DNA of 64,000 nucleotides from contig NZ_CP048286.1 of assembly GCF_010365285.1 (NCBI RefSeq), positions 5,179,501-5,243,500 of the forward strand, read 5' to 3'. The position numbers were made by a program, and so were the translations under genes. Within the stretch, counting starts at the first letter, position 1, and the number at the start of each line of letters is the position of its first letter. Below, one piece after another: positions 3,791 to 41,340 of the stretch. The stretch is from Paenibacillus rhizovicinus (GTDB lineage Bacteria > Bacillota > Bacilli > Paenibacillales > Paenibacillaceae). The notes below the pieces were generated by a model. It saw only the letters and a list, made by a program, of their open reading frames with translations, had not been told where the DNA came from and searched no databases.

Positions 3791-4879
3791 TTTCGCTGTA
3801 GTGGCCTCCGGCCGGATCGGGACTGCGCTCGCTGTTGTAATTCGGGTTTCCTCTTATTTGATAAGACATTTAGCGGTTGAAATCCGATTACAAAGGCGAG
3901 ACTCCGTCTCCGTTCCGGCCTGCGGCCGAATTTGGCTCTCTTCGTCGTTCGGGCAGGTAAGGCATTGTGTCCCTGGATAACTTGTGGACACGCCTCCGCG
4001 CTTCGCTGTAGTGGCCTCCGGCCGGAAACGCTACTGCGCTCGCTGTTGTAATTCGGATTTCCTTCTATCGGATAAGACATTTAGCGGTAGAAATCCGATT
4101 ACAAAGGCGAGACTTCGTCTCCGTTCCGGCCTGCGGCCGAATTTGGCTCTCTTCGTCGTTCGGGCAGGTAAGGCATTGTGTCCCTGGATAACTTGTGGAC
4201 ACGCCTCCGTGCTTCGCTGTAGTGGCCTCCGGCCGGAACGGGACTGCGCTCGCTGTTGTAATTCGGATTTTCTTCTATCGGATAAGACATTTAGCGGTAG
4301 AAATCCGATTACAAAGGCGAGACTCCGTCTCCGTTCCGGCCTGCGGCCAAATTTGGCTCTCTTCGTCGTTCGGGCAGGTAGGGCGTTGTGTCCCTGGATA
4401 ACTTGTGGACACGCCTCCGTGCTTCGCTGTAGTGGCCTCCGGCCGGAAACGGGACTGCGCTCGCTGTTGTAATTCGGATTTCCTTCTATCGGATAAGACA
4501 TTTAGCGGTAGAAATCCGATTACAAAGGCGAGACTTCGTCTCCGTTCCGGCCTGCGGCCAAATTTGGCTCTCTTCGTCGTTCGGGCAGGTAAGGCGTTGT
4601 GTCCCTGGATAACTTGTGGACACGCCTCCGCGCTTCGCTGGAGTGGCCTCCGGCCGGAAACGGGACTGCGCTCGCTGTTGTAATTCGGATTTTCTTCTAT
4701 CGGATAAGACATTTAGCGGTAGAAATCCGATTACAAAGGCGAGACTCCGTCTCCGTTCCGGCCTGCGGCCTAATTTGGCTCTCTTCGTCGCTCGGGCAGG
4801 TAAGGCATTGTGTCCCTGGATAACTTGTGGACACGCCTCCGTGCTTCGCTGTAGTGGCCTCCGGCCGGAACGGGACTGC
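3791..4879. repeat. Tandem array of 210/211-bp units, each with a long imperfect palindrome
   Basis: The word GTGGCCTCCG recurs at 3801, 4011, 4222, 4432, 4643 and 4854, giving periods of 210, 211, 210, 211 and 211 bp: five complete units and a partial sixth that stops at about 4879. Within a unit (for example 4013-4139) the left arm blocks GGCC, GGCCGGAA, TCGC, TTGTAAT and CGGATTT recur in reverse complement in the right arm, leaving a loop of roughly a dozen bases. The remaining 84 bp carry a second small inverted repeat, GTGTCC with GGACAC around CTGGATAACTTGT. Units differ at scattered positions. Apparent ORFs on both strands follow from the palindromic composition and are not reported as genes. 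Confidence 0.95.
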
Positions 4880-4883
4880 ACGC

Positions 4884-5066
4884 TAACGAATCTAGGCAGC
4901 GTTATTCGCTCCTATTACTGACTTCTAGCATCGTAACGAATCCAGACGTCGCTATTTGGCGTATCTGCTCTGCTGAAGGGCCTTTTGTTCCCGAATAAGG
5001 GGTTTCAGATTCGTTACGTTTTTTACGGGGGTCATTTTGACTGTTTAAGGCGTGTGGAGTTCGTTA
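4884..5066. repeat. Symmetric four-box repeat element (copy A)
   Basis: Four copies of the 7-mer TAACGAA are arranged as two forward boxes starting at 4884 and 4934 and two inverted boxes (TTCGTTA) starting at 5010 and 5060. Spacing is exactly 50 bp within each pair and 76 bp between the inner boxes. The inner pair extends to an 11-bp perfect inverted repeat (4932-4942 with 5008-5018). Two forward boxes and the first inverted box are followed, in their own direction, by a TTATT or CTATTT word 9-13 bases on. A matching element lies at 39261-39451. It lies between the tandem array and the Amj gene. Confidence 0.8.
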
Positions 5067-39260: not shown

Positions 39261-39451
39261 TAACGAATCCCATGCAGCTTATTTGGCTCAAAAACGGCCT
39301 AATTAAAATCTAACGAACCCAGAAAACCTTATTTTCAGAAAACACGCTATTTAGAGGGTTTTTCGCTTGTTTTCTCAGACATAAAGCCGCTGTGGTTCGT
39401 TAGAATTCGAAAAGCGGTTATGAAAGCAAATAAGCGCGATTCAGTTCCTTA
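39261..39451. repeat. Symmetric four-box repeat element (copy B)
   Basis: Forward TAACGAA boxes start at 39261 and 39311 (50 bp apart), an inverted TTCGTTA box at 39396, and a one-mismatch inverted box TTCCTTA at 39445 (49 bp further). The inner pair extends to an 11-bp perfect inverted repeat (39309-39319 with 39394-39404). Both forward boxes are followed by TTATTT. Layout matches copy A at 4884-5066. It occupies most of the gap between the sulfatase and GH5 genes. Confidence 0.8.
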
Positions 39452-39453
39452 GC

Positions 39454-39531: not shown

Positions 39532-41340
39532 TTAGTAGATGACGTAATCGTCGCAGTAGATCGTCCCGGAAGACGTCCAGGCTCCGATCTCCAGCTTTGC
39601 GGTACCTGCAGGAGCTACGTAAGTGGCGGTCTTCTGGCTGTAGCTGGAGGATGTAATGTTGAGGTCGACTTCCGAACCCGCGATATCGGCGCCGCTTGCG
39701 TTCTTGGCCTTGATATAGATGGCGCCGCTGCCACCGGTTGCGTCTGCTTTGCCGTAAGCCGAGAGATGATAGGTCGTTCCGGCAGAAGCGTTTAGTTGTT
39801 CGAATACGCCGCTTCCGTTCGTAACTTTGGCCGAATAGCTTCCGGAGTTGGCATTTCCGGTCACGGCTGAAACGCTGCCCCAGCTGCCCCATGAAGTCAA
39901 GCCGGATTCAAAACCGGGGTTGGCAAGTAAATTGGGCGTAAGCGAATAATCATCGCAGTAGATCGTCCCGGACGATGTCCAGGCGCCGACTTCCAGTTTT
40001 GCCGTACCGGCAGGAGCTACATAGGTTGTCGTTTTCTTGCTATAGCTGGAGGATGTAATGTTGAGGTCGACTTCCGAACCCGCGATATCGGTACCGCTTG
40101 CGTTCTTGGCCTTGATATAGATGGCGCCGCTGCCGCCGCCTGCATCTGCTTTGCCGTAGGCGGACAGATTATAGCTGACTCCGGCGCTTGCATTAATATC
40201 CTGATACACGCCGCCGCCGCTCGGCACTTTGACAGAGTAGCTTCCGGAATTGGCATTGCTTGCTACGGCCGAAGCGCTGCCCCAAGTCCCCCATGAGGAC
40301 AAGCCCGACTCGAAACCGGTATTGGCAAGCGAATTCGCCGAACCAAGTCCCGGTTGGCTGCTTAACCACGTTTTCGTAGCCTGGATGGCATTCTTGAGCT
40401 GCGTGCCCCAAGTCGTCAGCACGCCGCTATTTTGCACGTTATCCATGCCGTTGCCGGGTCTCCACCAGCTCCAGCCGCTATAACCTTGCGAATAACCATT
40501 GGTAACTGCCCAGTTGGAGACTGTATCAATGACTTGATTCGCGTTAGCGTCGGTCGACAGGTCATCGGTCGATGGTCCGAACTCCCCGTTGATCAGCGGA
40601 ATCGCCCCGTCGGCGCTGAGGGTGCTGCTATAATACGTGGAGCCGAATTGAGCGTTGTTAACGCCGCCGATCCATTTGGTGCCGTTAAGATAGGCATTCT
40701 GAACGGTACTTGCATTGGTCGAATAGTCGGACAGCCAGCCATAGAAGTGTGAATCCCAGACGACCCCGTGCATCGAAGCATAACTGCTTGGGGTTTGGGC
40801 ATTCGCTCCCTCGGTGTAGAGGACAACGATATTATTGTTGCCGGTACTTCTGACTTGATTGTAAACGGCAACGTGTTCATTGGTTAAAGCGGCGTTCGTG
40901 GGCTCATTCATGGTGCCGATCCAAACATAGGGATTGCTCTTATAGTAATTCGCGAGTGAGTTGATCCAACTAAGGTAATTGCTAGGCTCGCTGCTCGTAT
41001 CGATCGTCGGCCAAGGATGGTATTCGATCTCGCAGACGACGCCGTGCGCGGTCATTGTATTGATGAACGACGAAAAGTAGGAAGGAGCATTCATTCCATC
41101 ATCAGGGATACGGATGAAGTTGATCCCCGGAAACATGGCAAGGACTTGGTCGGCGGTACCGTCGCTGAGATACATGTCTAACCCGCTTGCGACATAGCGG
41201 TTACCGTTGGGGTCGTAAATTTTGCCGTTTACGACCTGGAAATTCCCATTGCCCGCCGCTTGACTGGCGGGTACGAAGGATAAAGACAAGATGAGCGATA
41301 ATGCCAACAATAGTGCGAATTTACTTCTTGCTGCTTTCAT
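39532..41340 (-). CDS. Secreted GH5-type glycoside hydrolase with two carbohydrate-binding modules
   Basis: A 602-residue exported enzyme. The signal peptide ends near residue 28 (ASQAA). The catalytic domain (about 30-335) is of the cellulase/mannanase type: Glu146 in GTMNEPT is the probable acid/base and Glu253 in INGEFGP the nucleophile. Two tandem beta-sandwich modules follow (about 338-468 and 472-602), each opening with NPGFESGL-like words and ending in GTIYCDDY, as in CBM4/9-like domains. No SLH domain, so it is released. AAAGGAGGG precedes the ATG and a cre site lies 36 bp upstream. Cellulose, mannan or another beta-glucan could be the substrate. Confidence 0.88.
   Translation of the reverse strand: MKAARSKFALLLALSLILSLSFVPASQAAGNGNFQVVNGKIYDPNGNRYVASGLDMYLSDGTADQVLAMFPGINFIRIPDDGMNAPSYFSSFINTMTAHGVVCEIEYHPWPTIDTSSEPSNYLSWINSLANYYKSNPYVWIGTMNEPTNAALTNEHVAVYNQVRSTGNNNIVVLYTEGANAQTPSSYASMHGVVWDSHFYGWLSDYSTNASTVQNAYLNGTKWIGGVNNAQFGSTYYSSTLSADGAIPLINGEFGPSTDDLSTDANANQVIDTVSNWAVTNGYSQGYSGWSWWRPGNGMDNVQNSGVLTTWGTQLKNAIQATKTWLSSQPGLGSANSLANTGFESGLSSWGTWGSASAVASNANSGSYSVKVPSGGGVYQDINASAGVSYNLSAYGKADAGGGSGAIYIKAKNASGTDIAGSEVDLNITSSSYSKKTTTYVAPAGTAKLEVGAWTSSGTIYCDDYSLTPNLLANPGFESGLTSWGSWGSVSAVTGNANSGSYSAKVTNGSGVFEQLNASAGTTYHLSAYGKADATGGSGAIYIKAKNASGADIAGSEVDLNITSSSYSQKTATYVAPAGTAKLEIGAWTSSGTIYCDDYVIY
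39541..40328 (-). repeat. Two tandem 402-bp repeats encoding binding modules
   Basis: Within the GH5 gene the stretch 39541-39927 recurs at 39943-40328 with a 402-bp (134-codon) period and very high similarity, including long identical runs around 39650-39710 and 40055-40115. Confidence 0.85.

Follow-up and report, generated by a model that had tools for sequence, protein, structure and literature searches.

A 183-bp segment of the Paenibacillus rhizovicinus chromosome raises the question of what kind of element carries four copies of one short box at so rigid a spacing. The segment, copy A, lies within the stretch of 64,000 nucleotides analysed here (the window). The first-pass annotation had offered two answers, a target bound by protein at several sites and a non-autonomous mobile element; the first is now well supported and the second in part. 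The four TAACGAA boxes were confirmed at 4884 and 4934 on the forward strand and at 5010 and 5060 on the reverse strand. The spacing of 50 bp is exact in both arms, in agreement with the unit coordinates, and the inner pair forms the 11-bp perfect inverted repeat described earlier, CGTAACGAATC at 4932-4942 against GATTCGTTACG at 5008-5018. TAACGAA occurs 18 times in the window versus 6.6 ± 2.6 expected, and a count of at least 18 was reached in 0 of 100 shuffles. The window holds another complete element, copy B, whose fourth box is TTCCTTA with one mismatch. The tandem array that ends 4 bp before copy A contains internal inverted repeats, and parts of it have matches among dispersed copies in other members of the genus. 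Just after copy B, at 39545-40329, a 402-bp tandem repeat is found in two copies with 81% matches, probably within a gene.

Table. Coordinates of the elements, their units and the adjoining array in the window.
Feature	Position	Strand	Description
Copy A, whole element	4884-5066		183-bp class, order L1-L2-R2-R1
Unit L1	4884-4906	+	TAACGAATCTAGGCAGCGTTATT; box A at 0, box B CGTTATT at +16
Unit L2	4934-4956	+	TAACGAATCCAGACGTCGCTATT; exactly 50 bp from L1
Unit R2	4994-5016	-	inverted
Unit R1	5044-5066	-	inverted; exactly 50 bp from R2
Copy B, complete element	39261-39452		192-bp class; boxes at 39261, 39311, 39396 and 39446
Tandem array	3792-4879		211-bp unit, 5.2 copies

A genome-wide scan for box pairs, the check that the earlier description had proposed, revealed further copies with the spacing kept. 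In the 7.5-Mb host genome 106 pairs were found at spacings of 35-65, against 9 for the reversed pattern, and 98 pairs at exactly 50 bp, against none in the reversed control. The host possesses about 65 elements, and every one has both arms, as seen from inspecting the surroundings of nearly all copies. Solo arms are absent among these elements except for one weak partial match, and no arm is parted from its partner by genes within the inspected host stretches. By DNA similarity copy A matches 16 places in its own genome, itself included, and host paralogues are only 67-80% alike in such matches. Relatives carry up to about 130 box pairs per genome.

Alignment of the copies adds to the earlier description a second motif, CGyTATT at +16 of each unit, two length classes 10 bp apart and an outer dinucleotide. 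The unit is laid out as TAACGAAyC at 0, rCGyTATT at +15 to +22 and an A- or T-tract near +30; TAACG and CGyTA together make a 21-bp imperfect palindrome, with unit size ranging from 21 to 23 bp. Two units 50 bp apart constitute an arm, and the two arms face one another. Because each unit is an imperfect palindrome (TAACGAAyC...CGyTATT), the element reads as four predicted dimer-type sites, two facing two. Terminal inverted repeats are present, with the consensus (G/T)C-TAACGAAyC...GrTTCGTTA-G(A/C) at both ends, and most arms of the 183-bp class in the host belong to one of two types, CCAG...GCTATT and CGTA...CCTTA. Among 291 unique copies from many species, scored with a 50-bp arm expected so that the unbiased support for the 50-bp rule lies in the genome-wide pattern scans, the lengths are almost always 182-183 bp (156 copies) or 192-193 bp (128), with one of 203 bp. 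The length classes are thus steps of 10 bp, one helical turn each.

The distribution among genomes is confined and patchy. Of 197 genomes from the host's family, 77 have pairs at 50 bp, a few of these being chance single-pair matches; the three-box geometry was found in 19 of 37 genomes of the family versus 0 of 361 other Bacilli. In the scan of named genomes all cases belong to Paenibacillus or Cohnella, among the matches listed. Some close relatives of the host have none or only a few copies and some have tens; within its genus, for example, G066, G045, G087 and G194 are element-rich like the host, and G113, G182, G105 and G121 are element-free. Plasmid and phage record collections gave no match to copy A; two viral contigs carry an element. 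The papers searched yielded no description of a repeat with this four-box layout. According to the sections of PMC6542083 drawn on here, the bcr1-bcr18 repeats of the Bacillus cereus group are likewise chromosomal repeats confined to one bacterial group, 100-400 bp in size with 11-130 copies of bcr1, a named TTTAT motif and a proposed recombination-like mobility; unlike the present element they belong to another bacterial family, and those sections describe no four-site 50-bp geometry for them.

That the copies might lie between genes, as had been suggested for checking, was borne out for 64 of 65 in the host, with genes called by a purpose-written program. Copy A is the sole host copy that overlaps a gene call, and the overlap concerns only a probably false upstream start. 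In the host the median distance to a gene end is about 390 bp, and that to a gene start about 440 bp. A role as promoter operator was considered and rejected, the gene starts being too distant and the orientation classes roughly tracking intergenic length. The largest element-free gaps of the host chromosome, 1.10 and 1.31 Mb, are located at the origin (~3.6 Mb, from dnaA and skew) and the inferred terminus (~0.1 Mb); these zones, G000:C1 3.18-4.28 Mb and 6.38-0.64 Mb, have P <= 2.5e-4 versus uniform placement. Avoidance of origin and terminus was dismissed as a general rule, as G221 has copies near the origin and G234 near the terminus. Two full-length dnaA-type genes were observed in the host (G000:C1 3617796 and 6799151), one of them at the origin and the other close to the inferred terminus, and the relative G168 likewise has two, at 180470 and 2974581.

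Orthologous copies were compared in eight clusters with 94 pairs, search seeds excluded; pairs within a cluster are non-independent and badly decayed copies would escape detection. Substitutions per site amount to 0.076 and 0.088 in the boxes, 0.163 in the spacers and 0.205 in the flanks, and thus the boxes change at half the rate of the spacers at orthologous positions. Small indels occur at 0.0025 per site versus 0.0156 in the flanks, a roughly sixfold deficit. Both comparisons agree in all eight clusters, and the picture is unchanged in a more permissive set of 158 pairs. Slow boxes and rare small indels are unexpected for dead repeats; resident copies are therefore held by selection. The base that follows TAACGAA is genome-specific at all four sites. 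It is A in 68 of 68 boxes of one Paenibacillus and in 35 of 35 in G019, and T or C only in the host. A single partner acting in trans is implied by this agreement among the four sites, and we infer that one putative protein co-evolves with the element set.

Comparison of loci shows both gain and loss of copies. Relatives in the genus lack the element and the 211-bp array in the cysK-like/amj interval. In a cluster of prophage tail genes, the gap between the genes is much shorter in ~30 relatives than in one contig, which there holds an element and ~130 bp of flanking sequence. Both cases denote gain of the element and constitute insertion polymorphism between relatives. Three of four loci inspected in G168 share the intergenic region with host copies; of these three, one is the best match of its host counterpart (rank 1 of 64), one has rank 29 and the third is matched by location only. 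The shared regions and the mixed ranks together make it likely that the same long intergenic regions hold both inherited and recurrently gained copies. In another genus of the family, g6 (centred on P. xylanexedens and P. amylolyticus), species share many copies by descent; some copies were lost through partial deletion, with about 30-47 bp or less remaining. Some species have lost whole copies by deletion, so that no single copy is essential. At L320, L329, L330, L341, L381 and L384 internal deletions have spared both outer boxes but only about 30-47 bp in all, and may be traces of a process that operates between the arms. A search for empty sites, as the first-pass annotation had advised, gave one near-clean case (L328) with no clear target duplication, and most of the other apparent empty sites proved to be deletion remnants.

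We give about an even chance to the reading in which the element is a four-site platform, maintained by the host, for a putative sequence-specific protein encoded elsewhere, and is also spreading. The kept geometry, the length steps of 10 bp, the purifying selection on the boxes and their co-variation by genome are what support a multi-site target. Spreading follows from the gain, tandem duplication and loss of copies, and may proceed in a way similar to that of a MITE. A dimer of one protein would occupy each of the four sites, and the two arms would pair into a looped or wrapped complex. Such pairing would require a fixed helical face, which could account for lengths of 183, 193 and 203 bp. 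Given that hundreds of bases separate the copies from gene starts, the complex would act on the chromosome (through architecture, insulation or an intergenic roadblock) and not as the operator of a promoter. Counting against the platform are the patchy distribution, the loss of whole copies in some species, the non-uniform placement between genomes, and the genes near the elements, among which no recurrent recombinase or other candidate was found; the large clusters of neighbouring genes, judged by eye, look like common transporter and regulator genes.

A MITE is the main rival: its arms would be transposon ends, each carrying a pair of transposase sites at a distance of 50 bp, and an unlinked transposase would mobilise it in trans. 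MITEs of Tn552/Tn402/Tn7-type transposons likewise carry at least two direct-repeat protein sites at each end, with the ends inverted. The strict geometry would then be a requirement of transposition. We regard this as possible but rather improbable. It accommodates the inverted arms with their slightly different left and right types in the 183-bp class, the clear gain in the prophage, the near-clean empty site and the recent amplification in G136 and G019, and to this extent (gain, tandem duplication and amplification in some genomes) the proposed mobility stands. Exact ends, a target duplication, an autonomous partner and a recombinase did not emerge. The loci inspected (about 0.5 Mb from the host, plus the others) contain no autonomous copy or split ends; no transposase recurs nearby, and the sole near-clean empty site shows no clear target duplication. 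Moreover, orthologous copies are still conserved long after insertion, and the amplified units of G019 include flanking DNA. In the lack of a parent transposon in the inspected loci and of a clear target duplication, and in the conservation of its copies, the element differs from the Tn552/Tn402/Tn7-type MITEs.

A selfish repeat with no dedicated protein, hitch-hiking when intergenic DNA recombines or is duplicated in tandem, seems unlikely. Copies do adjoin minisatellites and tandem arrays and are duplicated along with their flanks, but such a process leaves both the selection on boxes and spacing and the 10-bp length steps unexplained. Recently amplified larger units including flanking DNA were observed in G019 (L414-L426) and G136 (L132-L149), and in G136 most copies have a contig end ~300 bp away and adjoin a long repeat that they share. 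At L067 (after 4340) and L076 (before 4105) the adjoining minisatellites have repeat units containing the terminal sequence of the element. A structured non-coding RNA or terminator-like feature would suit the intergenic position and the long inverted symmetry, and is highly improbable, given that Rfam has no match in the window and that folding of the stacked alignments involves only the inverted repeats of the boxes or nothing. Least probable of all are REPIN-like elements moved by RAYT, a Y1 transposase: REPINs (PMC3116915) share with the element short, intergenic, inverted, non-autonomous doublets, genome-specific families and tandem clusters that include flanks, but the element has four sites instead of two over 183/193 bp, its units are not stable hairpins, and a PF01797 search for Y1_Tnp/RAYT, as far as that profile detects them, gave no match in the host and five other element-rich genomes of its genus (G066, G045, G087, G020 and G056; 23-118 exact pairs each).

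Returning to the protein platform, its widest form would be a chromosome-scale nucleoprotein system of the Paenibacillaceae, which we put forward as a doubtful and speculative extension. A putative fast-evolving protein seated on tens of platforms would fold or insulate the chromosome, with one platform design, one helical face and, in the host, siting away from origin and terminus. Noc, RacA and parS sites in Bacillus are dispersed single short palindromes with a biased chromosomal distribution. The element is similarly dispersed, palindromic and biased in distribution, but it is a rigid four-site array, and their motifs do not resemble TAACGAA. The repeat is present in over a third of the sampled genomes of a large bacterial family, its spacing is under selection and the papers searched describe no such geometry, all of which points to a DNA-binding protein still to be discovered; since some close relatives have tens of copies and others none, the partner gene may be sought by presence/absence comparison. 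Copies may also be grouped locally: Paenibacillus sp. GM2 has tandem arrays with as many as four elements spaced ~240 bp apart, and P. lignilyticus has clusters (L199, L249, L255 and L259).
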